Virus record (IMG/VR): IMGVR_UViG_3300022707_003617
Span: 1 to 40,239 of that record
DNA length: 40,239 nt
Direction: 5' to 3' (one strand)
Origin: a virus
Shown one piece after another: positions 1-37,191 of the stretch (positions within the stretch are counted from its first letter, which is position 1; each line of letters opens with the position of its first letter). The notes under the pieces were generated by a model. The model made no database searches. It was not told the DNA's origin and saw only the letters and a program-made list of their open reading frames with translations. The translations under genes were made by a program, and so were the position numbers.

Positions 1-2
1 GG

Positions 3-2945: not shown

Positions 2946-2947
2946 TG

Positions 2948-3325: not shown

Positions 3326-3622
3326 ATGGCAACCGAAACCATAAATTTCACAGTAGATGCCGCTGGCGACCCCGAGGCCGTTACTGTTCCAGTAGCTTGC
3401 AGGTCAATTGAAGTGCGAGAACAGGGCGATCCGACCACTGACTATTTCGTGCGTGCGCCCTCCAAGACCAACCCACAGCATAGGCGTTTTGCTGGCTCTG
3501 CCACCATCTTCCGGGCGGTCGGGCGAATGTTCCAACCGAGCGAAATTGTGGGCTACCTAGAAACCGTCGCTGGTTCTGTGACTTTCTCCGGCATCACCGA
3601 CGCAGAGGCAGGAGAAGCCTAA
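3326..3622 (+). CDS. Small beta-rich structural-type protein
   Basis: 98 residues, starting directly after the previous stop and ending in a TAATG overlap with the fibre gene. The composition is beta-rich with no membrane segment, zinc motif or coiled coil. The placement just upstream of a large fibre protein suggests a tail, adaptor or decoration role, but this is inference from position alone. Confidence 0.65.
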   Translation: MATETINFTVDAAGDPEAVTVPVACRSIEVREQGDPTTDYFVRAPSKTNPQHRRFAGSATIFRAVGRMFQPSEIVGYLETVAGSVTFSGITDAEAGEA

Positions 3623-7377: not shown

Positions 7378-7565
7378 AAAGAGCAGAGTTATGACTTCTC
7401 ATTTTGGCAGGCTTGCTCCAATCCTGCACTTGGATGGAACCGCCCGTTGTTGAGGCCGCCCAAGTTGACCTACTTTGGGACTACGATTATGGGGCTGATC
7501 CTGCCTGTGCAGTTGCGACCTCAGTCCACCGCGACTGTATTCATACGTCCAGGGCCACCAGCTAA
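7374..7565 (+). pseudogene. Lipoprotein-like small gene interrupted by an in-frame TGA at codon 7
   Basis: An ATG overlaps the previous stop (ATGA at 7374) and the frame ends in a TAATG overlap with the next gene, exactly as its neighbours do. Read through, it gives 63 residues: a short charged start (MKRAEL), the TGA at 7392-7394, then LLILAGLLQSC, which has the shape of a lipoprotein signal with a possible lipobox Cys, then a beta-type segment VDLLWDYDYGADPAC. A single C-to-T change (CGA to TGA) would explain the stop. Alternatives are readthrough (the context is TGA-C, known to be leaky), re-initiation at TTG 7404 or ATG 7434, or a sequencing error. TGA is an ordinary stop elsewhere in the window. 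Confidence 0.55.
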
Positions 7566-8293
7566 TGTGCGAGGTCAATAGCACGGTGAAAAAGCTGCTC
7601 AGCGTAACTCTATTGGCGTTGCTGGTTTCTCTGCCTGCTTGGGCAGACTTTCCGACCGTTGCCGCTACAAACACTAGCAACGCAACCGAGGTCACAAGTC
7701 ATGCAATAAGCTTGCCGGCTGATATTTTGTCGGGTCATCTTCTAATTGTTCTATTGGGGCTAGCCGATAATCGCACAACCACTTGGCCCGGTGGATGGAC
7801 AGAAATGTGGAGCGTATCATCGGCTGGGGCAGTTGTTTTTGAGGGCTATTATCGCATCGCTGACGGGACTGAAGGTGCGACCATCACTGTCACTACGAAT
7901 TTCGGAACCACCAGCGGCCACAACAGCTACCGAATAACGGGATATGCCGACACACCAGAGGATGGCACGCCAGCAACCGGAAGCGGCACAACCCCCGACC
8001 CACCGAGTCTAACACCTAGCTGGGGAGCGGAGGACACTCTTTGGCTTGCGTGCATGATGCACGACGTAGCGGATATTACTGGCTTTCCAACAAACTACAC
8101 CGATGGGATAGAAAGCAGCGCCGGGTCAAGCAGTGCCATCACCGGTTCGGCAAGGCGCGAACTCAATGCCACCAGTGAAAACCCAGGAACATTTACCGTC
8201 AGCCTCAGTTTCGACTGGATTGCCAATACGATTGCAATTCGTCCAGCGGCTGCTGCTGCTTCTCCACGTCGCCGCATGATCATAATTGATTAA
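7565..8293 (+). CDS. Exported beta-sandwich fibre-type protein (paralogue of the protein at 10685)
   Basis: 242 residues from ATG 7565. A GTG at 7586 would give a textbook n-region (MKKLL) and may be the real start. A Sec signal peptide ends near LPAWA-D. The body closely matches the second half of the protein encoded at 10685-12082: TSHxVxLPA, WPxGWxE, RxADGTEGxxITVTT, SYRxTG, PPSLxPSWGAExTLW, ARRELNxxSENPG and ANTIAIRPAA, ending in a basic PRRR tail. I know this repeat type from phage and metagenomic fibre-like proteins of unknown function. A role on the virion or host surface is inferred. Confidence 0.7.
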   Translation: MCEVNSTVKKLLSVTLLALLVSLPAWADFPTVAATNTSNATEVTSHAISLPADILSGHLLIVLLGLADNRTTTWPGGWTEMWSVSSAGAVVFEGYYRIADGTEGATITVTTNFGTTSGHNSYRITGYADTPEDGTPATGSGTTPDPPSLTPSWGAEDTLWLACMMHDVADITGFPTNYTDGIESSAGSSSAITGSARRELNATSENPGTFTVSLSFDWIANTIAIRPAAAAASPRRRMIIID

Positions 8294-8294
8294 A

Positions 8295-9734
8295 ATGAAA
8301 CGCCTATTCCTACTTTTGACTCTACTCTCTTTCCCTTTAGCAGTGGGAGCGGCTGACCACTTTATCCGTGACGGTGCCACAGGGGGTTCATGCACGGACT
8401 GGACGACCGCAAACGCCTGCGACAACCTTCCTGCGACCCTCACTCGTGGGGATACCTACTACATTGCCGATGGCAGCTACGGTGCTTACACCTTCAACGA
8501 TGCCGTCAGTGGCACCACGCTTATCACGATCAAGAAGGCGATTGAATCAGACCACGGAACCAGTACCGGCTGGCTTTCTTCTTATGGTGATGGTTCGGCA
8601 GATTTCACCGACTGGAACTTCTTTACCAGCTATTGGGAAGCAGATGGTCAAGTCGGCCAGTGGGCAGATGCCCGGTTGGGTGTCCCGGCTGTCCCAAACT
8701 TCGTCGCCTATGGTTTTCGTATTCTCAAAAATACGCAATCGTCAGGCGACAAACTAATTGAGATTGGAGTAGAGGCTACCCCAGTCACTAACGTTACCAT
8801 CCGGCACACCGAGATGGCCTACACCAACACACCAAGAATGTCAGGAAACTGGGCGCAAGACCAATTCATTATCATCGCTTGGGCTGATGATGTACTGATT
8901 AACTTCTGTTGGCTCCACGATGCCGGAGCACCCAGCCTCATCCTAGCGGATGCGAGCAACTTTACAATGGAATTTTCCGTTATGGAGCGGAATGGACATG
9001 CCGCGATTGCCGAGGGTTTTCCCCCTGAGACTGAGCAGGGCGGGCCGATGCACGCCTCCAACATCGGTGGCGACAATCACGTTTTCCGATACAACATAAT
9101 TCGAGACTGGCGGAGCACGGGCGCACTCAACATACACGCTGAAGGTGCTGGCATCACGAACTTCAAGGTTTACGGAAATTGGTTTACCACCACTGGCTAT
9201 TGGGCCTCGCCCAGCGAAGCAGATGATGAGAATGGGGTCGTCAGCGCGGTAACTGCCACTTCGGGGAACACGGCCTTCGTCTACAACAACACTTTCGTGG
9301 ATATAGACTATGGCTGTACGATAATGAACTTTGGTAGTTTCACTTCGAGGGACATCCGCAACAACATCTTCTACAACTGCCGTACCTGCTCGCAATCTGG
9401 AGGGGTGTGTACGGACGGCGATCCCGTACTGCCTCCCCTTGCCACGCACGACTTCAACTGGTTCTTTAACTCAGGCGAGCCCTGGTCAGAGACGAACGAG
9501 CAGGATGGCACTGGCGACCCGTTTGTGAATCTCTCTATCAACGATTACCACCTAGCGGCTGCAACCGATGCCGGTGACACAACGATTGGCGGCGAGTTCG
9601 ACACCGACCCCGATGGTTTAACTCGCGGTGCAGATGGTACTTGGGATAGGGGCGCGCTTGAATTTGTTGCAGGGAACCCTAGCACCTTAATATCTGGCTC
9701 CGTAAAGATCAGCGGAGCGGTAGTAGTTCAATGA
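8295..9734 (+). CDS. Secreted right-handed beta-helix protein (pectate-lyase-like fold)
   Basis: 479 residues from ATG 8295, one base after the previous stop; there is no good ribosome-binding site, so translation may be coupled. A Sec signal peptide (MKRLFLLLTLLSFPLAVGA) is followed by beta-helix rungs typical of polysaccharide-binding or -cleaving proteins (for example FVYNNTFVDIDYGCTIMN, RDIRNNIFYNC). The end (NDYHLAAATDAGD ... TWDRGALEF) is the usual C-terminal signature of secreted parallel beta-helix proteins. Phage tailspikes use this fold as depolymerases, but they normally lack a signal peptide. I cannot assign catalytic residues or a substrate. Confidence 0.75.
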   Translation: MKRLFLLLTLLSFPLAVGAADHFIRDGATGGSCTDWTTANACDNLPATLTRGDTYYIADGSYGAYTFNDAVSGTTLITIKKAIESDHGTSTGWLSSYGDGSADFTDWNFFTSYWEADGQVGQWADARLGVPAVPNFVAYGFRILKNTQSSGDKLIEIGVEATPVTNVTIRHTEMAYTNTPRMSGNWAQDQFIIIAWADDVLINFCWLHDAGAPSLILADASNFTMEFSVMERNGHAAIAEGFPPETEQGGPMHASNIGGDNHVFRYNIIRDWRSTGALNIHAEGAGITNFKVYGNWFTTTGYWASPSEADDENGVVSAVTATSGNTAFVYNNTFVDIDYGCTIMNFGSFTSRDIRNNIFYNCRTCSQSGGVCTDGDPVLPPLATHDFNWFFNSGEPWSETNEQDGTGDPFVNLSINDYHLAAATDAGDTTIGGEFDTDPDGLTRGADGTWDRGALEFVAGNPSTLISGSVKISGAVVVQ

Positions 9735-14996: not shown

Positions 14997-15026
14997 AGGG
15001 GCCGGACAGCGCCACCCCCGGCCCCT
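14997..15026 (+). terminator. GC-rich stem-loop after lysis cassette (possible terminator)
   Basis: AGGGGCCGG (14997-15005) pairs perfectly with CCGGCCCCT (15018-15026) around a 12-base loop, 18 bases after the last lysis gene. No T-tract follows, so intrinsic termination is uncertain. The position, between the late block and a promoter-driven regulator gene, fits a terminator or insulator. Confidence 0.45.
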
Positions 15027-15077
15027 CCCTCCAAGTATAAGAAAACTAAGCAATACCAACATTCTCTAAAATATCTA

Positions 15078-15113: not shown

Positions 15114-15314
15114 ATGGCAACAAACACAAAGAGCAGCCAAGCACTCGCAGTAAGGCTTCGTGAGTACCGCTTTGAGAACGATCTCACTCAAGAAAAATTA
15201 GCGCAAATTCTAAGCGTTTCAATCTTCACTATCAGCCGAGCCGAGAACGGAGGCACCGTCAGTGACCGCACTGAGTTCAAAATTAAGAAACTTATCGGTG
15301 GGAGTGCACGCTAA
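15114..15314 (+). CDS. XRE/Cro-CI-type DNA-binding regulator
   Basis: 66 residues from ATG 15114. A helix-turn-helix (LTQEKLAQILSVSIFTISRAENG, about residues 24-46) takes up most of the protein, and there is no C-terminal oligomerisation or protease domain, so it is Cro-like rather than a full CI repressor. It heads the rightward early block behind its own promoter and probably controls lysis versus persistence or early-to-late timing. AGGGG lies upstream, but would be absent from the mRNA if transcription starts at the ATG. Confidence 0.8.
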   Translation: MATNTKSSQALAVRLREYRFENDLTQEKLAQILSVSIFTISRAENGGTVSDRTEFKIKKLIGGSAR

Positions 15315-15315
15315 T

Positions 15316-15642
15316 ATGAAAAACCTAGTTGCAGTGACGCTGTTTGTGGCGATGTTGGCGTCGGCCCAGACCCCGAATGTCGAACCGGGCTTGCTTTTGA
15401 CCGAGGTTGAGACTCTGCAAATCTCCATCGTGATGAAGGACACGCTCCTGGCTGCCCAGAGGATGGAGATTCTTCTCACCCGATACAACCAAGCCGTCGT
15501 CGAACGCAACGCTGGGCAAGCGGCATTCGATCAGATGGTGGTGAGGCTGCGGGCCGTGCACGAAGCGCCAGCAGACAGGTTCACGTTCGACTCCGCCACG
15601 CTCAGGTTTATTCCGCTTCCACCAGAAGAACCCAAGCTATGA
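15316..15642 (+). CDS. Small exported protein
   Basis: 108 residues from ATG 15316, one base after the regulator stop. Residues 1-17 form a Sec signal peptide ending at LASA-Q. The mature part is mostly helical (LLTEVETLQISIVMKDTLLA, then a short amphipathic segment) with no cysteines. A periplasmic early-gene product right behind the regulator could act in superinfection exclusion or envelope modification, but this is inference from position. Confidence 0.65.
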   Translation: MKNLVAVTLFVAMLASAQTPNVEPGLLLTEVETLQISIVMKDTLLAAQRMEILLTRYNQAVVERNAGQAAFDQMVVRLRAVHEAPADRFTFDSATLRFIPLPPEEPKL

Positions 15643-15857
15643 TTGCCACTGAAATACTTAGAACACAATTCGAGCAGCGGCCATACAAGGGAAAAAGGCA
15701 GCCTCCAAAAGAAGCTATAGAGCTATTTGCCTACCTTGTCGAAGAAGTAGCTCCGAATGATTCAAGCAATGAAAGGGCGGGGTCGTTTGCTGCAATGTGT
15801 CTCTTATGGACGTTGATCGAGGCTTGCGAAATACAAAGTCACAGGGTTAAGAAGTGA
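15639..15857 (+). CDS. Small early protein of unknown function
   Basis: 72 residues, four-base ATGA overlap with the exported protein gene and four-base GTGA overlap with the next, so it belongs to a translationally coupled chain. It is helical and soluble, with a basic N-terminal part (RPYKGKRQPPKE). No motif recognised. Confidence 0.55.
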   Translation: MIATEILRTQFEQRPYKGKRQPPKEAIELFAYLVEEVAPNDSSNERAGSFAAMCLLWTLIEACEIQSHRVKK

Positions 15858-16147
15858 AGAAACAAACCAATCTCGTCCTGCCCGAAGAACACGTAATGTT
15901 CAGGGAAAAGTGCATGCAGTTGTTTGAGCGGCAGATTCCAGGTGTGGAGCACCGCACTAATCGGCTAACCGCGATCATTGACGAAATTGCCAAGGTCGGA
16001 GACAGCTATCCAATGTACCAATTCTATCTCGCCGTGATGTTTTCCGCAGACGACATGCTTGTCAACATGCGGGAGTTGATGATGGCGGAGTTGGAACAAA
16101 AAGCAAAGGGTGGGACGAATGGCAAACAAGGAATCCTCAAGAACTGA
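15854..16147 (+). CDS. Small early protein of unknown function
   Basis: 97 residues from GTG 15854 (GTGA overlap). Predicted all-helical with charged ends (MKKQTNLVLPEEHVMFREKC). No zinc, nucleotide-binding or membrane motif. It overlaps the next gene by 29 bases. Confidence 0.55.
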   Translation: MKKQTNLVLPEEHVMFREKCMQLFERQIPGVEHRTNRLTAIIDEIAKVGDSYPMYQFYLAVMFSADDMLVNMRELMMAELEQKAKGGTNGKQGILKN

Positions 16148-16328
16148 CTGCCGCTTCCTGCACCACATGATATATCTGCGAAAGACCTATCACTACGGAA
16201 TGACGAACGAGCAGACCCTTGAGGGCTGGATTGGTCATTGCGTGAATGATGGGTGTGATTTCTGGCGCAAGGTTTTAGGGCCATTGCCGTCCCACAGGAC
16301 TGCCCCTGCCCCCCTCAAGGGAGCGTGA
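16119..16328 (+). CDS. Small early protein of unknown function
   Basis: 69 residues from ATG 16119, overlapping the previous gene; a GTG at 16110 is an alternative start. It is rich in His, Cys and aromatic residues (CRFLHHMIYLRKTYHYG, then GHCVNDGCDFW), which could bind metal, but the spacing fits no known zinc finger. Confidence 0.45.
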   Translation: MANKESSRTDCRFLHHMIYLRKTYHYGMTNEQTLEGWIGHCVNDGCDFWRKVLGPLPSHRTAPAPLKGA

Positions 16329-16331
16329 GCG

Positions 16332-16622
16332 ATGAACCGCTACAAACCACGCGAGAGGTTCATGCTCGGCTGCCTGCTGGTGGCTCTGATGGTGGGGATT
16401 GTCTTTGTGAAGTTCTGGATGGTGTCGGTAGAGGAACGGTTGGCTGAGAACATAGTTATCCGCCGAGCCAACTTGGGGGACGACAAGACGCAAACCAACT
16501 TGCTTTACAACCACGAGAACCGACTACGGAGAGTCGAGCGCACCGCTTGGGCCGTATGGGACCACCACGCGCCTTATGATGGTTGGCCTACGCAGCAGCA
16601 AATCGCAAGAGGGGAACGATGA
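16332..16622 (+). CDS. Small single-pass membrane protein
   Basis: 96 residues. A hydrophobic segment (MLGCLLVALMVGIVFVKFWM, about residues 11-30) follows a basic start, so the long charged C-terminal part probably faces the periplasm. The C-terminal part is helical (HENRLRRVERTAWAV). It ends in an ATGA overlap with the next gene. No family recognised. Confidence 0.55.
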   Translation: MNRYKPRERFMLGCLLVALMVGIVFVKFWMVSVEERLAENIVIRRANLGDDKTQTNLLYNHENRLRRVERTAWAVWDHHAPYDGWPTQQQIARGER

Positions 16623-16915
16623 GTGAGCCGTTGACGCTCGAACAACTCGAAGCCGATTCCAAGAAGCTAAGGGAGCCTGCTACCTGCAATGCCGGGCACA
16701 AAAGCAACCTGCCGGTCGCGTTGTGGGATTGTCCGGTATGTACGCAGTTGCTCCGCGACAAGCTCCAGCAGGTGGAGGAGTTGGTGGGAATGATTGGCTC
16801 CTACCAGAAGCGCATCCTCAAGAATCCCACCGATGTAGATAGCTATCCGACCGCTACCGACATATTCGCCAAGAACCGCGAAGTCGAAGCGGCGCTAGGG
16901 GGGAAAGCAGAATGA
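16619..16915 (+). CDS. Small protein with Cys pairs, possible zinc binding
   Basis: 98 residues from ATG 16619 (ATGA overlap). CNAGH and WDCPVCTQLL (about residues 23-46) give a Cys/His set that could form a small zinc site, followed by a helix and an acidic tail. It overlaps the HNH gene by four bases. Function unknown. Confidence 0.5.
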   Translation: MSEPLTLEQLEADSKKLREPATCNAGHKSNLPVALWDCPVCTQLLRDKLQQVEELVGMIGSYQKRILKNPTDVDSYPTATDIFAKNREVEAALGGKAE

Positions 16916-17346
16916 GGAAGCGCCGGATACATGCAGGCGGATATTCGATGATTCCATTCAAGAGGCATGGAATTTATGAGCATAGGCAAATCATGGAGGC
17001 GGTGCTTGGGAGGAAATTGCTAACTTCGGAACACGTTCATCACAAGGATGGCAATAAGACAAACAATCACCCTTCTAACCTACAGGTTGTTTCAGCTCAC
17101 GACCATCGAGGATTGCATCGGCAGACACGCTGCAAGTCTGGGCACGCACTAGAAGGTCCCAATGTGTATGTCCGACCAGACAACGGCAAAAGGCAATGTC
17201 TAGCTTGTAAGAAGGGTGTGTTCAAACGCTTTCGCGCGAAAAACCCGGGGTATTTGCGGCAATGGAGAGCGAACAGCCCTCACCGCGTTGCCGAATACGA
17301 ACGCCGGCGCAGAGAGGCAAGACGGCTAGGAGCTCCGCATGACTAG
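16912..17346 (+). CDS. HNH homing endonuclease
   Basis: 144 residues. EHRQIMEAVLGRKLLTSEHV then HHKDGNKTNNHPSNLQVVS and HDHRGLH (about residues 22-65) is the phage HNH_3-type core with its catalytic His and Asn. A CKSGHALEG...RQCLACKK segment behind it looks like a zinc ribbon used for DNA binding, and the C-terminus is strongly basic. Such genes cut and spread as mobile elements. It keeps four-base coupling to the gene before it. Confidence 0.85.
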   Translation: MRKRRIHAGGYSMIPFKRHGIYEHRQIMEAVLGRKLLTSEHVHHKDGNKTNNHPSNLQVVSAHDHRGLHRQTRCKSGHALEGPNVYVRPDNGKRQCLACKKGVFKRFRAKNPGYLRQWRANSPHRVAEYERRRREARRLGAPHD

Positions 17347-17566
17347 GCAGTGCGCGTGGTGTCAGCTAATTCTCGGAGAGCGGTGCCCTCAGTGCGGTTC
17401 GGAAAATCTGATTCTGCTCAACAGAGAGGATGATTTGCCACCCGATACGTTTGAGTGCCACAACCACCATGAATTTCAGGAAGGCGCAGGCGGAGTAACC
17501 CACGGAATTTGCGACCCCTGCCTAGAGAAGCGCAAGCAAGAGGTACAAAGCGCAGCCAGATACTAG
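17339..17566 (+). CDS. Zinc-ribbon small protein
   Basis: 75 residues overlapping the HNH gene by eight bases. Three CxxC pairs are visible: CAWC (residues 5-8), CPQC (16-19) and CDPC near residue 58, plus CHNHH, so it probably binds two zinc ions. It could be a DNA-binding or adaptor protein, but the partner is unknown. Confidence 0.55.
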   Translation: MTRQCAWCQLILGERCPQCGSENLILLNREDDLPPDTFECHNHHEFQEGAGGVTHGICDPCLEKRKQEVQSAARY

Positions 17567-17576
17567 CGAGGACGGC

Positions 17577-17738
17577 ATGAGCGAAGTTGAGAAAGAAAGA
17601 GTTCGCCTCCTAATAGAAATCTGTACGAGAAGCCTTTCGGTTATGACTGCGGCAGCAGCAATCGGGAATACAGAGGAAATTGAGAAAGGAAGAAAATCTC
17701 TTGAGGGCGCTCTGATTGAATTGGTTGGAGCTAAATAA
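17577..17738 (+). CDS. 53-residue helical protein upstream of recT
   Basis: ATG 17577 opens a 53-codon frame whose TAA shares one base with the recT ATG (TAATG), which argues that it is translated. The protein is helical, with alternating charged and hydrophobic residues (EVEKERVRLLIEICTRSL and EEIEKGRKSLEGALIELV), and could be a small coiled-coil partner. GAGG is present upstream. No family recognised. Confidence 0.6.
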   Translation: MSEVEKERVRLLIEICTRSLSVMTAAAAIGNTEEIEKGRKSLEGALIELVGAK

Positions 17739-18892
17739 TGACCACGGCTACCGAAAAGACCGGCCTCATAAAAGTTGGCGAAGAAGTCCAGAAGGTCAAA
17801 GCCTTCTTCAACACGCCCGCTATCAAAGAAGGGCTGCAAAAAGCATTACCGCAGGCGGGGGTAACTTTTGAACGCCTGATGAGCACGCTGGTTAGTTGTA
17901 TTCACAAAAAGCCTGGGCTGTTGCTGTGTACGCCCAATTCACTCTTCCAAAGTATAGTCCGAGCCGCACAGATGGGGCTAGAGATTGATTCTCCCTTGGG
18001 TCATGCTTATCTGGTTCCATTTGCACAGCAAGTGCAGTTGATTATAGGTTACAAAGGGTTAATTACTTTGGCCTATCGTGACCCGCATCTGGTTTCTCTA
18101 TCTGCACATGCAGTCGGTGCGAATGATGAATTTGATTATCAGTTAGGCACCAACCCCTATATCCGTCACAAGCCCGATCTCAAGCAGTGGACACTTGAAC
18201 CGGAGACTTTGGTAGCCGTCTATGCAGTAGCCAAGCTACGCAATGGTGGGGAAATGATCGAGATTGTGCCGGGCCGTGTTATTGAGCAGCTTTGCACCGA
18301 CCAAATCGCCAAGCACAAAGGCGAAAGCCCTTGGCGCTATCACTTCGGCGCTCAGGCTCGCAAGACCGCCATACGAAGAATTTCCAATCTCCTTCCTAAG
18401 AGTGCAGATGATTCTGTACGACAATGGTATGAGGCATTGGAGCATGAGCGCAGGACGGAAGAGGGACAAGTAACAGACGCGGTGGAGTTGCCTGAAAGCG
18501 CCGAACTGAGTAAGCCGTTTGTTGAAAAGGGTGAGTTTGACGAAGAGGCTGCCGTAGTTGAAGAAGAAACGGCTGAATCACTACCGCTTACTGTCTTTTT
18601 CAATGTCGCCAAAATTGAGGGAGAAGAGACGCTGTGCATCTGGGGGTCGGATGCCTCACTAGCTGCAATCCGGCACGTTCTGACCAAGAAGAAGGACGGC
18701 TTGGATGCAAAGTATAAGCCAGTCGTAAAAGAGGGCAAAGTTGTTGACATTCGATACCTTGCGAAGCCGACCAAAGACAACCTTAAACTCCTGCTGAAAA
18801 CCTGTGCAGATTCCCGCGTAAAGCTAGCAGAGGAATTCCCGGAACTAGACGCTAAGGGGATCGGGTTTGACAAACGCCAGTCAGGAGCCTAA
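17738..18892 (+). CDS. recT: RecT-family single-strand annealing protein with C-terminal extension
   Basis: 384 residues. Residues about 25-235 match RecT/RedB-type annealing proteins: LVSCIHKKPGLLLCTPNSLF, AAQMGLEIDSPLGHAYLVPF, LIIGYKGLITLAYR and HFGAQARKTAIRRI are typical. It would anneal complementary single strands during phage recombination or replication. RecT proteins are usually about 270 residues. Here an acidic linker (about 250-275) leads to an extra domain of about 110 residues (TVFFNVAKIEGEETLCIWGS onward) that I do not recognise. No partner exonuclease is seen nearby. Confidence 0.88.
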   Translation: MTTATEKTGLIKVGEEVQKVKAFFNTPAIKEGLQKALPQAGVTFERLMSTLVSCIHKKPGLLLCTPNSLFQSIVRAAQMGLEIDSPLGHAYLVPFAQQVQLIIGYKGLITLAYRDPHLVSLSAHAVGANDEFDYQLGTNPYIRHKPDLKQWTLEPETLVAVYAVAKLRNGGEMIEIVPGRVIEQLCTDQIAKHKGESPWRYHFGAQARKTAIRRISNLLPKSADDSVRQWYEALEHERRTEEGQVTDAVELPESAELSKPFVEKGEFDEEAAVVEEETAESLPLTVFFNVAKIEGEETLCIWGSDASLAAIRHVLTKKKDGLDAKYKPVVKEGKVVDIRYLAKPTKDNLKLLLKTCADSRVKLAEEFPELDAKGIGFDKRQSGA

Positions 18893-19388
18893 GCCATGCC
18901 GAACAAAAAGATGCAAGAAGCCGAGAGCTTGGGGCCGCGCTCGGTGCTGGGATTGTGTTCGCCGCTCCTACTTCTTGCGGAAGTTGAAGCGGAAGGCAAG
19001 GCGAAAGCGCCCCGGCTCCGCGCCCAACAGAGGGGCAGGGTGGCAAAGGGCAAGAAAGGCCGTCTCAAGGCAATCCTGCGCCGTCTGTGGAGCAAAAAGA
19101 GGCCCTTCAAGGCTTACATCCAAGGGATTGAAATCGGTGGGCCTTCCGGTGGACCACATAATCCCAGCGAGATTCATCGAGCAGCACCAGCTCGGCGATC
19201 CGAGCGCAGCGGTCAACCTGGTAGCCCTGTGCCGAAAATGTCACCCAAAGAAAAGGCGGGCTGAGGACAGGCTGTGCAACAGAACCAACATCATCGGCTA
19301 TCTCCAAGAAATGAACCGCATAGGTTTCCCGATGGAGCTCGTGAAGCGTGCAATGGCCTTTTATGGAATCAAGTGTGCGGCGATCTAG
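18867..19388 (+). CDS. HNH endonuclease with zinc-binding core
   Basis: 173 residues from TTG 18867, which lies inside the end of recT with AAGGGG seven bases upstream; no ATG occurs before the core. The N-terminal part is extremely Lys/Arg-rich with a CRTKRC...CWDC zinc-type set. The core (CAVCG ... VDHIIPARFIEQ ... NLVALCRKCHPKK, about residues 70-128) is a Cys-containing HNH. It could be a homing enzyme or a packaging/recombination nuclease. The last codons form one arm of a stem spanning 19375-19448. Confidence 0.8.
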   Translation: MTNASQEPKPCRTKRCKKPRAWGRARCWDCVRRSYFLRKLKRKARRKRPGSAPNRGAGWQRARKAVSRQSCAVCGAKRGPSRLTSKGLKSVGLPVDHIIPARFIEQHQLGDPSAAVNLVALCRKCHPKKRRAEDRLCNRTNIIGYLQEMNRIGFPMELVKRAMAFYGIKCAAI

Positions 19389-19448
19389 GGCGTGTATCCG
19401 GGGATAGCGCAGAGGAGCCTAGCCCCACTAGGGATAGGGTCGCCGCAC
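19375..19448 (+). ncRNA. Predicted three-way-junction RNA element 1
   Basis: GTGCGGCGA (19375-19383) pairs perfectly with TCGCCGCAC (19440-19448). Inside are two hairpins: GCG/CGC plus TATC/GATA (19390-19410) and CCTAG-CCCCA-CTAGG (19418-19432). The second is nearly repeated in the element at 20074. The 5' arm lies in the last codons of the HNH gene. Expression and function are unproven; it may be a regulatory RNA or a processing or termination structure. Confidence 0.4.
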
Positions 19449-19481
19449 TGCTTTCAATGGGAGAGACGATAAGGAGGAAAC

Positions 19482-19676
19482 ATGGACGAAGAAATGGAAC
19501 CAACTAGGGGCGAAACGATTGGAATGGTTAGCTCTAGGCCAACCATGAAGGACAAACTGCTCGGCAAGAAGCAACGCTACGAGAAGCAATTGAAAGAAGT
19601 GAACGATGCCCTGGAAGCGCTCAGGGAGAATCCCGAAATTGAACGGGTTCTCAACGTAGTCAGCAAAGTTATCTAG
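19482..19676 (+). CDS. Small helical protein of unknown function
   Basis: 64 residues with a strong ribosome-binding site (AAGGAGG). The C-terminal two-thirds is a charged helix (KKQRYEKQLKEVNDALEALR) likely to form a coiled coil. It stands alone between two structured gaps, unlike the overlapping genes upstream. No family recognised. Confidence 0.6.
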   Translation: MDEEMEPTRGETIGMVSSRPTMKDKLLGKKQRYEKQLKEVNDALEALRENPEIERVLNVVSKVI

Positions 19677-19682
19677 GGTTCA

Positions 19683-19770
19683 ATGGGAGAAGGGAGCCGA
19701 ACCGCCTACGGCAGATCGCAAAGCGCAAAACGCGGTTGGAAGCTGTAGGCCGGCCATGATCTTCTCCCAT
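19683..19770 (+). ncRNA. Predicted structured element 2
   Basis: ATGGGAGAAG (19683-19692) pairs perfectly with CTTCTCCCAT (19761-19770). Inside, CCGAACCGC (19697-19705) pairs with GCGGTTGG (19732-19739) with one bulge, and CGC-AAA-GCG (19717-19725) forms a small hairpin. The palindrome GGCCGGCC lies in the 3' half. The total length is 88 bases with no open frame. I checked for a tRNA: there is no T-loop or anticodon arm. Confidence 0.4.
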
Positions 19771-19799
19771 CAGTTTGGGGCTGGTGGTAAGGAGACGAA

Positions 19800-20069
19800 A
19801 TGAACGAAGAACAGGTAGAAACCGACCGCCGAGAAACGGTCGAGCGAAACCCTAAAAGCGCGGTCGCGCAAGTTGACAAGCTGGCGGCGTTCATCCTTGC
19901 CCACCAGCTCTTAGGCGAACCGAGCCGCAGCGAGGGTGCAGTAGATGTCTCGATTCGCTTGCATAAAGTGTTGCTGCAGGCGATTGCTACCCTTTCCACG
20001 CTGCCCGGGTACACCGATATGACTCCGTGGGAAGTCATGGAGAGTCAGAAGAAGCTTGCGGAAGTGTAA
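19800..20069 (+). CDS. Small early protein of unknown function
   Basis: 89 residues; the start is supported by AAGGAG. Helical and soluble (VDKLAAFILAHQLLGE and SIRLHKVLLQAIATLSTLPG), with an acidic N-terminus. It stands alone between structured gaps. No motif recognised. Confidence 0.6.
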   Translation: MNEEQVETDRRETVERNPKSAVAQVDKLAAFILAHQLLGEPSRSEGAVDVSIRLHKVLLQAIATLSTLPGYTDMTPWEVMESQKKLAEV

Positions 20070-20073
20070 GGCG

Positions 20074-20134
20074 AGGCGGCGCTGGTGAACCAACCAACTA
20101 GCCCCTCTAGCGACCCGGAACGCTGGTGCCGCCT
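20074..20134 (+). ncRNA. Predicted structured element 3
   Basis: AGGCGGC (20074-20080) pairs with GCCGCCT (20128-20134). Inside, CTAG-CCCCT-CTAG (20098-20110) repeats the hairpin CTAG-CCCCA-CTAG of the element at 19375 with one loop change. GCTGGTG occurs twice, once next to each outer arm. It precedes the gene at 20154 and could control it. Confidence 0.38.
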
Positions 20135-20153
20135 TTCACATAAGGATTGACTG

Positions 20154-20453
20154 ATGGAAACGATTAGAGCCTACGAACCGCCGCTCACTGAGGCTGGAAC
20201 AATACTAACTCCTGGCGAAGAAGGAGAAATTTATCCAGGGGTGCGTGGCTACGCAATAGAGCACAAGGGGTTCGTTTATATCCCGATGGTGTTTGGACAG
20301 GGCGATGGACAAGTGGGTAAGTTTCTTGACGCTTTGTCGCCCCGGTGTCGGATGGTCAACGTGATTTCAGCAAAGTTGCGCCACATGCTTCAACGGCGGG
20401 GATGGAAGATGAAAATAGAGGAGGATGTAGATGTGTGGGAACCTCCGAAGTAA
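20154..20453 (+). CDS. Small early protein of unknown function
   Basis: 99 residues, start preceded by AAGGA. The body is mixed alpha/beta (GEIYPGVRGYAIEHKGFVYI) with an acidic tail. The stretch TAAGGATTGACTGATG at its start recurs with one change at 20451-20466 just behind its stop. No family recognised. Confidence 0.58.
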   Translation: METIRAYEPPLTEAGTILTPGEEGEIYPGVRGYAIEHKGFVYIPMVFGQGDGQVGKFLDALSPRCRMVNVISAKLRHMLQRRGWKMKIEEDVDVWEPPK

Positions 20454-20463
20454 GGACTGACTG

Positions 20464-20508
20464 ATGCTCGGCATCCTCAAAGCATTGGCGAGTCGAGTGT
20501 GCCAGTGA
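20464..20508 (+). CDS. 14-codon micro-ORF starting a coupled chain
   Basis: ATG 20464 follows TAAGGACTGACTG, a near copy of the initiation region at 20141-20156, and its TGA overlaps the next GTG (GTGA at 20505). It is too short to assign a fold. It may act as a leader that loads ribosomes for the genes behind it. Confidence 0.3.
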   Translation: MLGILKALASRVCQ

Positions 20509-20654
20509 GCAGGAAAATGAAACCAAAGCGGTGCAAGGCCAAGAGTCGCGTGAGAAGGTTCCCTCACCTATTCCATCGCTGCGTGCTAGAGATTCGCCAC
20601 AAAGACTCGCACGCATGTCAGTGCGGAACAAGGTTTAGACGCGAAAGGAAATGA
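20505..20654 (+). CDS. 49-residue basic protein with His/Cys residues
   Basis: GTG 20505 is chosen for its overlap with the preceding stop; ATG 20517 behind CAGGA is the alternative. The protein is very basic (MSRKMKPKRCKAKSRVRRF), with HRC and HACQCG that could bind one metal ion. It ends in an ATGA overlap with the next micro-ORF. A nucleic-acid-binding role is only suggested by charge. Confidence 0.4.
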   Translation: MSRKMKPKRCKAKSRVRRFPHLFHRCVLEIRHKDSHACQCGTRFRRERK

Positions 20655-20713
20655 CTACCACCCCCACCACCGACCACCGGGAACGAGCCCGCGTCAGGAG
20701 CCGTATAGAATGA
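20651..20713 (+). CDS. 20-codon coupling micro-ORF
   Basis: ATG 20651 overlaps the previous TGA, and its own TGA overlaps the ATG of the winged-helix gene at 20710. The peptide is Thr-rich, then Arg-rich (MTTTPTTDHRERARVRSRIE). It may serve only to carry ribosomes to the next gene. Confidence 0.3.
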   Translation: MTTTPTTDHRERARVRSRIE

Positions 20714-21063
20714 AACAAGAACCGCTGTTTGACAAAAGAACGGAACACGCACGCTGGACCGAACGCGAACCACGCGCACATGCAAGACGGAGCGACCCCG
20801 AAACCAGTCACCAAGCGGCAGCGTCGGTCAAACGAATGCGAGAATCACAGATGTTCATTCTTGGATTGTTTCGCAGACATGGTGGAATGGTTGATGATGA
20901 GCTGATTGTGGTTGCCAGCGGCGTGCTTGCGGGTCGCAAGATGAGCGTTTCTGGCATTCGCACTAGACGGAGTGAGCTTGTCAGACTCGGCATGGTACGC
21001 GATACAGGAAAGCGGCGGCGATTGGAGAGCGGCAGGCTTTCAATAGTTTGGGCGGCGGTATGA
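20710..21063 (+). CDS. Winged-helix phage protein (DPxTSHxAA family)
   Basis: 117 residues. SDPETSHQAAASV (about residues 28-40) is the hallmark of a common small phage family with a MarR-like winged helix. The following helices and GIRTRRSELVRLGMV fit the recognition helix, and the last strands (RRLESGRLSIVW) the wing. DNA binding is likely; the target is unknown. It is coupled by four-base overlaps on both sides, to a micro-ORF and to rusA. Confidence 0.7.
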   Translation: MKQEPLFDKRTEHARWTEREPRAHARRSDPETSHQAAASVKRMRESQMFILGLFRRHGGMVDDELIVVASGVLAGRKMSVSGIRTRRSELVRLGMVRDTGKRRRLESGRLSIVWAAV

Positions 21064-21509
21064 ACGCGAAGCCCAGGATTCAATGGCCCCTAGTGATAGA
21101 AGTGCCGCTATCTGTTCCGAGTGGCAATGCCTATCGCCCCGGAGGAGAGTATCGCCATTGGGCAAAGTATAAGCGGCTCCGAGAAGAATGGCAGGGTTGG
21201 ATTGTTTTAAGGTTGGGCGCTCCCAAGCTACATCGCTTGCAAAAGTGGGTGGAGAAGAACCGCCCCAAGATGCGAGTGCAATTCACCTGTCACCGCAAAC
21301 GCATGATAGACCCACCCAACCTACACGCCGGCCTGAAACCAATGCTGGATTGCCTTGTGATGGCGAAGAAAAGCCATCCTAGTGGTCTAGGGCTGATCGT
21401 GGACGATTCGGCGGAGTGGCTGGTGGAGTTCACCGCGAAGCAAGAGTTGACGGAGAAAGGGATGCGGGCTTTTACACAAATAGAGATTTCACCAGTGGAG
21501 GTGGCGTGA
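21060..21509 (+). CDS. rusA: RusA-like Holliday junction resolvase
   Basis: 149 residues from ATG 21060 (ATGA overlap). The core matches RusA: VPLSVPSGNAYRPG at the start, KRMIDPPNLHAGLKPMLDCL, and LIVDDSAEWLVEF, giving the acidic active-site residues around positions 85, 99 and 118. The usual DxDN is DPPN here. It would resolve four-way junctions made during recombination or replication, and fits the RecT protein upstream. Its last codons are duplicated at 21670-21699. Confidence 0.75.
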   Translation: MNAKPRIQWPLVIEVPLSVPSGNAYRPGGEYRHWAKYKRLREEWQGWIVLRLGAPKLHRLQKWVEKNRPKMRVQFTCHRKRMIDPPNLHAGLKPMLDCLVMAKKSHPSGLGLIVDDSAEWLVEFTAKQELTEKGMRAFTQIEISPVEVA

Positions 21510-21512
21510 CGA
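21483..21512 (+). repeat. Direct repeat copy 1 (end of rusA-like gene)
   Basis: Thirty bases covering the last codons (EISPVEVA), the stop and the next GTG. They match 21670-21699 at 26 of 30 positions. Confidence 0.7.
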
Positions 21513-21655
21513 AACGACCATATCCAAAACACTATGTGTGGTGTACGCACTGTGGCTGGAGAGGCCGGCGGCGTCGGCATCGAAGTGGTGTTCACGGTAC
21601 TCCTTGCCCGCGATGTGGGCGGTTGCAGGTTGAAATAACTAGAAAGAAAGTTTAG
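21506..21655 (+). CDS. 49-residue zinc-ribbon protein
   Basis: GTG 21506 overlaps the rusA stop (GTGA). CTHCG (about residues 13-17) and CPRCG (about 34-38), with an Arg-rich loop between (RGRRRRHRSG), make a compact zinc ribbon likely to bind nucleic acid. It lies between the two direct repeats and may have been inserted there. Confidence 0.6.
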   Translation: MTKRPYPKHYVWCTHCGWRGRRRRHRSGVHGTPCPRCGRLQVEITRKKV

Positions 21656-21669
21656 GCGGCTACAGGTAA

Positions 21670-21699
21670 GAGATTTCGCCGGTGGGGGTGGCGTGATGA
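21670..21699 (+). repeat. Direct repeat copy 2: relic of the rusA 3' end
   Basis: In frame it reads EISPVGVA and stop, against EISPVEVA in the intact gene. Three of four differences are single G-for-A changes, two of them silent. A stop lies immediately upstream, so this is a relic, now serving as the initiation region of the gene at 21696. Confidence 0.6.
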
Positions 21700-22079
21700 G
21701 AAAAGCCATGAAAAATACTTGTGTGATTAGGATTCGTTCCGAACGATATAGGGGAAGGCTTGCACGCTTTCATCCTAAAGACAATGACTCTGTAGCGGAA
21801 GTGGGTTGCTGGCCTAAGAAACTGATGGGGCAGTTTGGTAAAAGACCTGTTGGTATCTACTCTATTCGGCGCGTGAAAAAATCTACTGCAAGGTCGGTAG
21901 ATGTTGTCATTGTCGGCAACACTTCCGGTTCCCCGTTCCCAGCTTGCTTTGAGCCATACTATGGAATCTGCAAAAGGTTTCTGCGCGAGTTGGGAGCCAA
22001 GCCGCCAGCAAAGGACAGGCGCAAAACCCTGCACCTTGTTGTTCGTAAACTCAAAGGTCTCAAAAGGAAAAAGTGTTGA
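21696..22079 (+). CDS. Basic early protein of unknown function
   Basis: 127 residues from ATG 21696; GGGGGTGG upstream is a good ribosome-binding site. Strongly basic throughout (MRKAMKNTCVIRIRSERYRG at the start, RKLKGLKRKKC at the end) with beta-strand-like segments in the middle (SVDVVIVGNT). It may bind nucleic acid. The next gene starts on the following base. Confidence 0.55.
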   Translation: MRKAMKNTCVIRIRSERYRGRLARFHPKDNDSVAEVGCWPKKLMGQFGKRPVGIYSIRRVKKSTARSVDVVIVGNTSGSPFPACFEPYYGICKRFLRELGAKPPAKDRRKTLHLVVRKLKGLKRKKC

Positions 22080-22973
22080 ATGCCTAAGCGCGTACTAGAC
22101 GGAGAGGGTTTTTGGGGCAGTAGGAAGCTCCGGCGCTGTCCGGTCTGGATTCGCCGCGAGTACCCCTACCTGTATCCGCTGGCAGACTGTAATGGGAATT
22201 TCGAGTTGGACATTCCTGTGATCCTGGGAAAACTAAAAGCGAACCGGCCCGACCTGTCCATCCGCAAGCTAGAACTTATCTTCGATACTTTCAAGAAGGA
22301 GGGCCTAGCCTTCGTCTGGGCGGCAGCACGCCGGCAGTACGTCCACTGGACCGGATCAGAGCGCAGAGGTAGGCTTCCCCAGCCCTCACACCGTTCCAAC
22401 AAGTACGAACGCAAGTTGGCACCACCTTACCCACAGGAGGAATATGCTGCTTATTTACAACAGTTTGGCGAGCTAGTTGATGTGGCGGCTTCCACCAGCT
22501 TGGCTACGGCTAGTGCTAGGGCAACGGTTAGGGCAAAGGAAAGGGCAAAGGAAAAACCTTCGCAGGATTTGTTTCTTGCATTCTGGAAATCCTACCCTAG
22601 AAAGGTCGGGAAACCAGCGGCACAGAGAACATGGAAGAACGCTTTGTTGAACCTTGAATACTTGGAGAAAAAATCAAACAGTCCCGGTGACAGAGAACCA
22701 CTAATCCCGAAAATCATGGCTGGCCTAGAACGCTGGAAGGAAACTGAACAGTGGCAGGAGGAGAAATTCATCCCCCATCCAGCGACGTTCCTGAATCAGC
22801 GGCGGTGGGAAGATGAACCGCCAGACACAAATAAAGGACTGAGTACGGCTGAACTCGGAACGGGCCCAGTTCCATCGCGGACAAGCCACTGTGCCTACTG
22901 TGGCGCTGAAACCCCACTAGGATTCCTAAAGTGCTTGAAGTGCATCAAGAAGAAGGCCCCGGCGAACCCATGA
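22080..22973 (+). CDS. Phage replisome-organiser / helicase-loader-like protein
   Basis: 297 residues. The N-terminal part (YPLADCNGNFELDIPVILGK, KLELIFDTFKKEGLAFVW, RQYVHWTGSERRG) resembles the winged-helix start of phage replication-initiation proteins. A linker with tandem Arg/Ala/Lys/Glu repeats (about residues 140-160) follows, then a second domain (FWKSYPRKVGKPAAQRTWKN ... FIPHPATFLNQRRWED) typical of helicase-loader-type phage proteins. The tail carries CAYCG...CLKC, an added zinc finger. It probably recruits the host helicase to phage DNA. The family is recognised from motifs; the loading role is inferred. Confidence 0.7.
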   Translation: MPKRVLDGEGFWGSRKLRRCPVWIRREYPYLYPLADCNGNFELDIPVILGKLKANRPDLSIRKLELIFDTFKKEGLAFVWAAARRQYVHWTGSERRGRLPQPSHRSNKYERKLAPPYPQEEYAAYLQQFGELVDVAASTSLATASARATVRAKERAKEKPSQDLFLAFWKSYPRKVGKPAAQRTWKNALLNLEYLEKKSNSPGDREPLIPKIMAGLERWKETEQWQEEKFIPHPATFLNQRRWEDEPPDTNKGLSTAELGTGPVPSRTSHCAYCGAETPLGFLKCLKCIKKKAPANP

Positions 22974-23200
22974 AACCATTGAGTGAATTGGTGAAAGAGT
23001 TTGAAGATAACTGGGGTGCCCACGCCGATGATGAATGCTCTGAGTGTATGGCTGCCCGACAGATTACAGAGAAACTGCAAGTATGGTTGAGGGAAGCTGA
23101 TAAGGCGCTAGACGAAGCTGAGCGGAATCCATCCGTCGTACAACTGGGATGGGTTCACCATAAGCTACTCGGCACAACGCGGACGGAGGGGAAGAAGTGA
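22970..23200 (+). CDS. Small acidic early protein
   Basis: 76 residues from ATG 22970 (ATGA overlap). Acidic and helical, with a CSEC pair near residue 23 that could bind metal with an outside partner. It ends in a GTGA overlap with the next gene. No family recognised. Confidence 0.55.
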   Translation: MKPLSELVKEFEDNWGAHADDECSECMAARQITEKLQVWLREADKALDEAERNPSVVQLGWVHHKLLGTTRTEGKK

Positions 23201-23421
23201 AAAAGTCCAAGCTGAGTGAGATTCGAGTGCGTGACCAATCTGCGCCTGGTGGTGCACGCTTTGATGTCCCTTACCTACTCGACTTGGTGGAGAGGCTGGG
23301 GAAGGCGTTGGATAAATACTGTGCTCACGATGCTACTTGCAACCATAGAGACATTTTTGAACCTCGCTGCGATTGTGGTTTGGAAGAAACTCGCGCACTC
23401 CTTAAGGAGCTAGAGCTATGA
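23197..23421 (+). CDS. Small Cys-rich early protein
   Basis: 74 residues from GTG 23197 (GTGA overlap). A helix (YLLDLVERLGKALDKYC) leads into CAHDATCNHRDIFEPRCDCG, four Cys and two His that probably form a zinc site, then a second helix. It resembles small phage accessory proteins of unknown role. Confidence 0.58.
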   Translation: MKKSKLSEIRVRDQSAPGGARFDVPYLLDLVERLGKALDKYCAHDATCNHRDIFEPRCDCGLEETRALLKELEL

Positions 23422-23894
23422 GCCGTGAACTAACAGAGAAACTGTTGAAAGTTTTTGTGGACACTGGCGACATGAAGATGAGTTACCGGGAACTGGCGGG
23501 AGTAGCGGCCAAAGAAATAGAGCGCCCCCTAGCCCAAGCGCGGGCGGAAGTGCTGGCGGCATGTGTTGCCGACGTAGATGCTGCCCTTGCTATATTTATG
23601 GAAAATGAGGGACGCAGTAAAGATGAAAAATTACTGGTCGGTGGTACATGTCTCGCAATCAAGAATCGCTTGGGAGAACTCCAACCCGCCGCCGCAGCCC
23701 TGGAAGAGTTACTAGAAGAAGCCAGGCGGAAGGAGGGGGAAAAAGTGCGTAAAGAAGCCCTCCTCGACATACTGGCGTTCAACTCTGGGCTCGGTTGTAC
23801 TCCACAGGAAGGCTACAAGTGGTTGGTCGAAGCTCTGCGAGATACACAACGCCTGTCTATTGAGAAGGCCCGCGTCAGTGAGGGGAAGAAATGA
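23418..23894 (+). CDS. Helical early protein of unknown function
   Basis: 158 residues, ATGA overlaps on both sides. Almost entirely helical and Ala/Glu/Arg-rich (LAQARAEVLAACVADVDAAL, AAALEELLEEARRKEGEKV), suggesting a coiled-coil or scaffold-like protein. It directly precedes the ATP-grasp gene and may be its partner, which is inference from coupling only. Confidence 0.6.
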   Translation: MSRELTEKLLKVFVDTGDMKMSYRELAGVAAKEIERPLAQARAEVLAACVADVDAALAIFMENEGRSKDEKLLVGGTCLAIKNRLGELQPAAAALEELLEEARRKEGEKVRKEALLDILAFNSGLGCTPQEGYKWLVEALRDTQRLSIEKARVSEGKK

Positions 23895-24625
23895 TCTACT
23901 GGATTGGCAACAGCGAGAATTGGGATAAGCCCATTCACCCAACAAGCGGCAGCGTCATGGACGAATCCTACGCCTTTCCCTTAGTGGAAGAAGCCGTGCT
24001 TGAAACTGCGTTCAGTCCAGTTTATGTACGTTGCAAACACTTGAGCCCAATGGCCGCCATCAATTGCACCAGCCGCCGCGCGCTCCGCACGATGCTACCA
24101 GATGAGCTGAACCCGCAATGGGAGACTATACCCTTTCTTTTTCTTGACGGTTTGGTAGTGAAAGCCCCCGCCAGTTGTCAGAACCAAGGCATCGGGTTCG
24201 CTTTGCCAAACGAGTATTCGCGCCGACTCGCGCAGTATGACCCAAGTTGGGCAGACCGCGGTATAGTTGAACAATACATTCCCGGCCCGCAGTATGAAGC
24301 CGATGGGGTAGTGATAGAGGGCAAGGTTCACCTGTTGGCATGGACGCTGCAGGAAGGTGAGAACGGTAAGATTGTGCGCTACAATCCTATGAGGGATAAG
24401 GACGGACCGATGTTACCAGAAGCTCCTACTGAGATAATTAAAACCGTGGTAAAGGCACTTGGCTTGGACAACTGCCCGTTCTGCTTTGAAATGAAATACA
24501 CCATAGACACAGGAAAGACGCAATGGAAGATCATTGACGCTCACGCTCGACTAGGAGAGGATCGGCGCTTGTGGGCAGATCAAGCCAGCTTGTTCGAGCG
24601 CATTGACAAGATTATTTCAGGATAG
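23891..24625 (+). CDS. ATP-grasp-fold enzyme
   Basis: 244 residues from ATG 23891 (ATGA overlap). ATP-grasp features are visible: LVVKAPASCQNQGIGF with the nucleotide-binding Lys near residue 91, GIVEQYIPGPQYEADGVVIE (about 124-143) where the purine contacts fall, and FCFEMKYTID ... WKIIDAHARLGED (about 198-223) with Glu and Asp/Arg positions for Mg-ATP. The family joins a carboxylate, activated as acyl phosphate, to an amine or thiol. At 244 residues it is short, and the N-terminal subdomain is reduced. The substrate is unknown. It closes the early block and overlaps the minus-strand gene tail to tail by 14 bases. Confidence 0.65.
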   Translation: MIYWIGNSENWDKPIHPTSGSVMDESYAFPLVEEAVLETAFSPVYVRCKHLSPMAAINCTSRRALRTMLPDELNPQWETIPFLFLDGLVVKAPASCQNQGIGFALPNEYSRRLAQYDPSWADRGIVEQYIPGPQYEADGVVIEGKVHLLAWTLQEGENGKIVRYNPMRDKDGPMLPEAPTEIIKTVVKALGLDNCPFCFEMKYTIDTGKTQWKIIDAHARLGEDRRLWADQASLFERIDKIISG

Positions 24626-25415: not shown

Positions 25416-25726
25416 TATCCCTCCCTATCAATCTCCGCCTTTATTCGGCGGGCCTCTTGGCACAAGTCAGCCCACTCGCTACGGCCAATATCAAGTACGG
25501 CGTCATCCCCCCGTGTACGGTCTGCTAGTCGCGCCAGCAACTCATACATCTCCGGCGCTTGGGCGATTAGAGCAGCGTCATTTGCGCCTTGCTTAACATC
25601 TGCGATTGGAACGTAATCTCTTTCAGGGCCTTTATAGTCGGCATCCACATGCCAGCGGCTTCCTACGTCTTGAGTAGGCCTCCACGGCCCCGGCGTGTGC
25701 TGCGTCAGCTGCTTGCTTTGTGCCAT
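25415..25726 (-). CDS. Phage protein of the HTPGPW / NAALIAxAPE family (minus strand)
   Basis: 103 residues, with GGAGGTGA just upstream of its ATG. HTPGPW near residue 10 and ANDAALIAQAPEMYELLARL in the middle are the well-known signature of a small, widespread phage protein of unknown function. It is the first gene of the leftward operon and its promoter should lie in 25727-25838. Confidence 0.75.
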   Translation of the reverse strand: MAQSKQLTQHTPGPWRPTQDVGSRWHVDADYKGPERDYVPIADVKQGANDAALIAQAPEMYELLARLADRTRGDDAVLDIGRSEWADLCQEARRIKAEIDREG

Positions 25727-27805: not shown

Positions 27806-27951
27806 TGAAGCAAGATGATTTCAATCTAGCCTTTGAGCTTTTCCTCTCCACGGTTGGCGCGGTCGGTTTCGGCCTCTGGCAAGGGAGTTGGAATGCGGGA
27901 GTTTTTGTATTCGTTGTGCTCTTTATTTCGATGAGATGGAGGGCTGGCTGA
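27805..27951 (+). CDS. 48-residue membrane protein overlapping the tRNA gene
   Basis: ATG 27805 (TAATG coupling). Two hydrophobic stretches, about residues 9-24 and 29-43 (AGVFVFVVLFISM). Its last 14 bases, including the TGA at 27949, lie inside the tRNA-Ser gene (acceptor and D stem), so processing of the tRNA would cut this message. Function unknown. Confidence 0.48.
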   Translation: MKQDDFNLAFELFLSTVGAVGFGLWQGSWNAGVFVFVVLFISMRWRAG

Positions 27952-28032
27952 AATGGCTAAGGCACCTGTCCCGAAAACAGGCGTACCGTTCGAGAGACGG
28001 TACTACGGGTTCGAATCCTGTGCCCTCCTCCA
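27938..28032 (+). tRNA. tRNA-Ser (anticodon CGA), encoded CCA, C33
   Basis: Acceptor stem GGAGGGC (27938-27944) pairs perfectly with GCCCTCC (28022-28028). D arm 27947-27963 has GG in the loop. Anticodon stem CCTGT/ACAGG encloses the loop CCCGAAA with anticodon CGA (27972-27974). A long variable arm GTACCGT/ACGGTAC (27983-28003) is perfect. The T arm ACGGG-TTCGAAT-CCTGT is followed by discriminator T and an encoded CCA (28030-28032). The long variable arm and CGA anticodon mean serine for UCG codons. Position 33, nearly always U, is C, and the discriminator is T where Ser tRNAs usually have G. Confidence 0.88.
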
Positions 28033-36977: not shown

Positions 36978-37190
36978 TTGCCGCAGAAGAAAGGCAAGCA
37001 CCGCTTCCGCTTGCGGCAGACTTACGAAACCAAAGACCTGATTCTGCCAATGTTGAAGCTGAAAAAACCAGTGACTATCCGCATCACAGGGGACGACAAG
37101 TACCTACGCCTATTTGTCGGCCCCCGTGATTGGCAGTTCTCCAAAGAGGATGGACGTTTTGTCGGGGCAGGAACTCGCCGGGGGAATTGA
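36978..37190 (+). CDS. Small protein sharing the PQKKGK-RFRLRQ motif
   Basis: 70 residues from TTG 36978 with GGAGG five bases upstream. Its first 13 residues duplicate the C-terminus of the protein at 34178; the TTG corresponds to a Leu codon there. The rest (MLKLKKPVTIRITGDDKYLR) is beta-like. It lies directly behind the portal gene. Confidence 0.6.
   Translation: MPQKKGKHRFRLRQTYETKDLILPMLKLKKPVTIRITGDDKYLRLFVGPRDWQFSKEDGRFVGAGTRRGN
36981..37020 (+). repeat. Direct repeat copy 2 (PQKKGK-RFRLRQ)
   Basis: Forty bases matching 34322-34361 with four changes, directly after a TTG start codon. Confidence 0.75.
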
Positions 37191-37191
37191 T

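Follow-up and report, generated by a model that had tools for sequence, protein, structure and literature searches.

The genomes of mosaic phages carry boundary or linker sequences, short conserved stretches that flank unrelated genes, and the early genes of phage T7 have RNase III processing hairpins between them. A third described system, the SAS and ESAS elements, is found in cluster K mycobacteriophages (PMC3203893) and in Microbacterium cluster EF (PMC7302621). The SAS consensus is 13 bp long, GGGATAGGAGCCC (PMC3203893), there are 11-19 copies per genome, and 17-bp stems enclose 4-13 nt (PMC3203893, PMC7302621). The ESAS authors state that departures in the inverted repeats do not support RNA pairing, and propose that a protein binds the DNA (PMC3203893). 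The locus studied here resembles that layout: a short conserved repeat lies near translation starts in some of its copies, inverted repeats with a variable spacer lie just upstream of it, and the gaps concerned are wider than usual, among non-structural genes and ahead of genes that differ between phages.

The window analysed is a whole IMG/VR virus record of 40,239 bases, classed as linear. A block of plus-strand genes (15114 to 24625) comprises an HTH regulator, two HNH endonucleases, RecT, many small genes and a replication-initiation protein. Gap sizes were taken from a hand list of the 26 genes in this block, a home-made gene caller having been discarded because it missed the HNH gene at 18867-19388; in the list, entry 20464-20505 ends a codon before its stop and entry 16119-16331 extends 2 bases beyond its own. 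Neighbouring genes mostly touch or overlap, and the gaps of at least one base measure 1, 10, 93, 123, 84, 10, 55 and 37 nt. An earlier note, made from the sequence of the window, had pointed to three consecutive structured gaps amid overlapping genes, and these are indeed the widest three of the block (93, 123 and 84 nt), in a row. The elements in them are designated E1, E2 and E3, and the features of the locus are as follows.

18867-19388, plus strand: HNH endonuclease gene (open reading frame; phrog_144, E 2.8e-12; Pfam HNH)
19371-19453, plus strand: E1, a 15-bp outer stem with inner helices, best fold on the plus strand; copies in relatives G001 (two), G003 and G004
19450-19469, plus strand: tail repeat GYTTTCAATGGGAGAGACGA, whose core GGAG resembles a Shine-Dalgarno sequence; 10 copies matching at least 15/20 in 5 records
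19482-19676, plus strand: small gene of 64 aa between tail repeats (open reading frame)
19679-19690, plus strand: second tail-repeat core, TTCAATGGGAGA, part of the 5' arm of E2
19681-19772, plus strand: E2, the strongest fold of the three (z -5.13, 0/1000 shuffles; rank 2 of 1339 windows)
19800-20069, plus strand: small gene of 89 aa (open reading frame)
20070-20139, plus strand: E3, a 15-bp stem with G-U pairs and a CTAG hairpin within; copy in G005
20140-20156, plus strand: start region ATAAGGATTGACTGATG after E3, directly repeated in the window and shared with G003-G005
20154-20453, plus strand: small gene of 99 aa flanked by the start-region repeat (open reading frame)
at 20451, plus strand: near copy TAAGGACTGACTGATG of the E3 start region, behind the next gene (direct repeat)
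20451-20483, plus strand: right edge of the variable zone, a conserved start region with first codons (MLGILKA)

PHROGs and Pfam searches with the 64-aa, 89-aa and 99-aa genes gave no match. The three elements lie in their gaps as had been claimed, except that the 5' arm of E1 lies inside the HNH frame, being made of the final codons and stop of that gene.

The three perfect stems reported earlier were recovered exactly: 9 bp in E1 (19375-19383/19440-19448, span 74 nt), 10 bp in E2 (19683-19692/19761-19770, span 88 nt) and 7 bp in E3 (20074-20080/20128-20134, span 61 nt). The CTAG hairpin motif said to be shared by E1 and E3 is likewise present, as CTAGCCCCACTAG at 19419 and CTAGCCCCTCTAG at 20098, but in the minimum-energy fold of E1 the CCCC pairs with GGGG and the hairpin is lacking. 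In the shuffle control proposed for these folds, exact elements were equalled by 13 (E1), 0 (E2) and 1 (E3) of 1000 shuffles but, with 10 extra nt on each side, by 44, 0 and 53. The bare gap 1 folded no better than shuffled sequence (z -0.28, 382/1000), because the 5' arm of E1 sits in the HNH frame; for bare gaps 2 and 3, 21 and 22 shuffles of 1000 were as good. The best perfect arm inside each gap was reached by 25, 8 and 239 of 2000 shuffles, respectively. A scan of 1339 windows, each 90 nt long and set 30 nt apart, placed E2 2nd and the best window over E3 18th; windows over E1, whose stem this spacing did not frame, came 747th or lower. The strongest fold of the whole window (8671-8790, z -6.9) lies in a coding region. 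The single-sequence statistics are thus clear for E2 and modest for E1 and E3, so that support for the latter two rests on relatives.

Relatives were found by several routes. A search with RecT gave a close relative, G001 (79% protein identity), one with the tail TTTCAATGGGAGAGACGA gave G002, G003 and G004, and an HNH alignment gave G005 and G006; behind the HNH gene of G006 no such element was seen. Over 1718 bases G004 and G003 share 99.94% identity, and for this reason neither the alignments nor the island count described below include G004. In searches of 50,697 phage records, the nucleotide sequences of the locus and of window positions 1-8000, and the HNH protein, found no match, and all terminase and RecT matches were below 60% identity. 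A pattern scan of genome contigs returned seven contigs of unrelated phyla, judged from their titles to be chance. A scan with the 3' arm of E3 returned six contigs, namely three known relatives plus L041-L043, and reading the latter across the match revealed no element; a viral scan with the right-edge island returned known relatives only.

E1 is present once in the window, twice in G001 and once in G003 (the same in G004), giving four distinct copies from three phages. In a MAFFT alignment of these, all 60 cells of the 15-bp outer stem are paired: eight pairs are invariant, six have changed on one side and one on both (C-G to U-A). In a slid control, with partners moved 1-3 columns, 38-58% of cells pair; the stem was picked by folding one of the same sequences, which gives it an advantage in this control. 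The 5' arm of E1 is coding in the window and in G003, and part of its conservation may thus lie at the protein level. The first alignment also included a hairpin of L014, lone tails of L014 and L002, and E2, whose arms do not align and which were for that reason excluded from the pair counts. As to covariation, proposed earlier as a check, every E1 cell is paired and one pair has changed on both sides, but the shuffle control was not significant (118/500), as expected with only four sequences. RNAalifold predicted 25 pairs for E1, five with changes on both sides, some of these within the inner helix. This helix reads GGGG/CCCC in the window and in one of the G001 copies, but GGCG/CGCC in G003. 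It excludes the CTAG hairpin, which is not conserved, the CTAG-CCCCW-CTAG motif being missing from the other E1 copies. A covariance model of the four copies, run over 233,721 bases (the relatives' records and the window), found five strong places (99.8-114.2 bits), all confined to the E1 locus. Weaker matches at the same locus were two in G002 (26.5 and 27 bits) and a lone G001 tail (19.6 bits), and four further matches all had E values of 0.5 or worse. The model gave E3 4.2 bits (E 7), and the idea that E1 and E3 form one family joined by the CTAG hairpin was rejected.

E3 recurs in G005 at 91% identity over 86 nt, amid unrelated genes, and apart from the edge islands there is no other strong nucleotide match between the window and G005 inside the zone. 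Its fold in G005 is strong (z -4.99, 0/1000 shuffles), and the sole change in the 15-bp stem between these two sequences is G-U to A-U. Of E3 and what follows it, G003 and G004 have lost or lack all but the 3' arm and start region; G003 directly joins two blocks (22/22 and 28/28 bases) that are separated by 178 bases in G005, and E3 has therefore been lost or gained there. A candidate replacement 5' partner in G003 (10/11) was rejected as firm evidence, since 71 of 5000 shuffles match it and it is absent from the best fold. Pairing is thus kept across relatives for both E1 and E3, and the earlier view of structured elements between small phage genes holds for them. E2 had no relative among the related phages compared. 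Its 5' arm contains the second tail repeat, so it may have arisen locally by rearrangement of this material, and it is probably of the same kind as E1 and E3, on weaker evidence than they have.

E1 is followed directly by the repeated TTTTCAATGGGAGAGACGA and E3 at once by the conserved translation-start region. The ten tail repeats lie on the gene strand, immediately downstream of the HNH gene or of the site where it would stand, and the next best matches (pieces of G001-G004, and the window) score 14, as do the best at the HNH loci of G005 and G006; a shorter tail pattern had one exact match in these two, in G005 and distant from the zone. The small genes between tail repeats differ, with 64 aa in the window, a membrane-like open reading frame of 35 aa in G001 and 55 aa in G002. 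An ATG falls within one base of the repeat in two of ten copies (G001 8788 and G002 9387), and at the window repeat of 19450 the start is 12 bases downstream, behind a second Shine-Dalgarno sequence. In L014, a 370-aa gene (1964-3073) matching phrog_4285 (transposase), without a match in Pfam, is preceded by a tail repeat and by a leader that could pair (z -1.19); an open reading frame at 1233-1748 of L014 has repeated ARS/WLA/GSL motifs, perhaps a tandem array.

The right edge of the zone in the window, G001, G003, G004 and G005 is a start region with first codons, GACTGACTGATGCTCGG..., identical at 29/29 bases in G001, G003 and G004. In G005 it occurs twice, before two different open reading frames, one a DNA methyltransferase; the start region with MLGI[LV]KAD stands at L037 2313 and 2518, before two different open reading frames, the second being the DNA methyltransferase. 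Between the edges lie three genes in the window, one of 90 aa in G003 and one of 97 aa in G005. A homologue of the G003 90-aa gene (78%) is found elsewhere in the window, on the opposite strand at 25566-25675, and zone genes may for this reason move and invert too. The early block has 18 short islands shared with relatives, of which 10 coincide with a start region, against a mean of 3.6 when shifted, and at least 10 was reached in 50 of 10000 shifts; islands above 60 nt were excluded, which left 27 of 39 rows that merged into the 18, and two starts in the list used (15852 and 23198) are off by a base or two. Four stretches of the window (16301-16337, 16598-16626, 16868-16918 and 22948-22991) share 86-100% identity with G001 or G003, straddle start codons and sit between genes without nucleotide similarity. 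Ahead of the block, a non-coding hairpin at 14997-15046, AGGGGCCGG...CCGGCCCCT, is 92% identical in G003. Far downstream, the start stretch (37019-37148) of an NADPH-dependent FMN reductase gene (37114-37893) matches early-side DNA of G001.

E1 and E3 occupy particular positions between genes, are conserved, keep their pairing, and are tied to start regions and to gene exchange. The explanation tentatively preferred, with a probability of roughly 45%, is that they are cis-acting hairpins of the sense-strand mRNA at gene-swap junctions, between the HNH gene and exchangeable small genes, serving as processing or insulating marks and doubling as recombination homologies. A hairpin in the long early transcript would mark the boundary of two messages, where it is predicted to be an RNase-processing site or a barrier to decay, and an insulator that shields the next start site from upstream structure. 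Hairpin and start region could also supply short homologies by which RecT-type recombination would swap genes, a role suggested by their constancy while the genes behind them differ; RecT is encoded in the window and G001, and G003 encodes a protein of the RecT family. Little is understood of how a small gene that has just entered a mosaic phage comes by a functional start and a clean message, and a constant structured RNA and start region with a changing gene would offer a testable model, in which the junction, not the gene, carries the expression signals.

That the inverted repeats act instead as DNA, as operators, promoters or other sites for a phage or host protein, is rather unlikely. The arms and tail are more conserved in sequence than the inner loops, as in a protein site, and ESAS sets a precedent (PMC3203893). 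The pairing itself leans towards sense mRNA, because the non-Watson-Crick cells in a tally of the outer stems are all G-U (16/60 in E1 and 9/30 in E3), with no A-C, and because in 8/8 copies tested the plus strand folds lower than the minus strand. The difference is 1.3 to 14.2 kcal/mol, where the early region in general gives -1.1 +/- 5.5 kcal/mol, and the stems were originally chosen on the plus strand. In G003 neither strand stands out, with z -2.75 for the minus strand and -2.53 for the plus strand. Promoter-like sites at the gaps are not above chance, which speaks against this explanation too.

It is also unlikely that E1 is a scar of HNH mobility, in which a gene that jumped or was lost left only its 3' end behind, with hairpins that have no job. 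Several HNH genes are present in the window, and the E1 copies of G001 and G004 retain the last HNH codons (KCVAI/CVAA and stop) with no HNH gene directly ahead; one G001 copy forms a mini-ORF, MKCVAI, with a Shine-Dalgarno-like AGGTG, and no ATG start was found for the remnant frame of the other. The point at which G004 departs from G003 is precisely the left edge of E1; this junction is possibly a chimera, being about 300 bases from a contig end. Against a scar, pairing survives changes at 7 of the 15 stem pairs, one of them a non-synonymous codon change made together with its pairing partner, and no HNH gene precedes E3 in the window. In 4/4 distinct copies a stop codon (TAG or TAA) marks the inner border of the 5' arm, even where the HNH gene is gone, which suggests a further, doubtful reading of E1 as a translation-sensing switch at gene-swap junctions: a ribosome ending at the stop would melt the stem and so alter how strongly the swapped-in gene is expressed.

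Chance hairpins, in junctions inherited by descent, would suit the small number of sequences (four of E1 and two of E3) and the frequency of perfect stems of at least 9 bp, which is not in excess across the window (12, against 8.7 +/- 3.2 in shuffles); that four diverged E1 copies keep their pairing makes this improbable. That each small gene is followed by an intrinsic terminator or attenuator is very improbable: TTTT follows the E1 stem and TTT the E3 stem, but the T run is short and displaced, and of 13 terminator-like sites (12.3 expected), with a short GC stem and an immediate T run, none is at the stems of E1-E3. Free trans-acting small RNAs, close to one of the two options of the earlier note (small phage RNAs or processing sites), would fit the size and gap position, yet seem very unlikely given the overlap of the E1 arm with a gene end and the lack of promoter-like sites there; a search of Rfam 15, which had also been suggested, matched no family, with only a tRNA elsewhere reaching the gathering cut-off and a best score near the locus of 15.3 against 40 bits. 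A tRNA-Ser (CGA) gene is located at 27938-28032. Integron-like attC sites, folded as single-stranded DNA, are the least credible, for although an imperfect inverted repeat lies behind each small gene and repeats bracket genes, neither attC core, GTTRRRY nor RYYYAAC, occurs on either strand of the three gaps. Overall, what the earlier note observed is confirmed and its interpretation partly supported.

No description of E1-E3 was found in literature on phage boundary sequences, T7 processing sites and structured phage RNAs, a coverage mostly outside subscription journals. The preferred reading, of mRNA hairpins at gene-swap junctions, makes the elements comparable to the T7 RNase III hairpins, which are likewise irregular, of similar size and in gaps between small early genes; the likeness is one of size and position. 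Compared with SAS and ESAS, the repeat here, TTTTCAATGGGAGAGACGA, is neither GGGATAGGAGCCC nor a near copy, and no sequence is shared. There are 1-3 copies here, with all ten repeats at one locus, against 11-19 across the non-structural half of the genome, and 15-bp stems around roughly 40-70 nt, against 17 bp around 4-13 nt. On that comparison the locus works like the SAS/ESAS layout but is not a member, since sequence, number and spread differ. Unlike in ESAS as described, pairing is kept (60/60 cells in E1), and the authors' argument against hairpins fails for E1 and E3. If the preferred reading is true, inverted repeats beside start-associated repeats can be RNA hairpins, an option set aside for the mycobacteriophages. 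Like the boundary sequences of mosaic phages, the constant stretches described here are short, conserved and beside unrelated genes, and they may serve as homology for gene exchange; unlike them, some of the boundaries here are hairpins with kept pairing.
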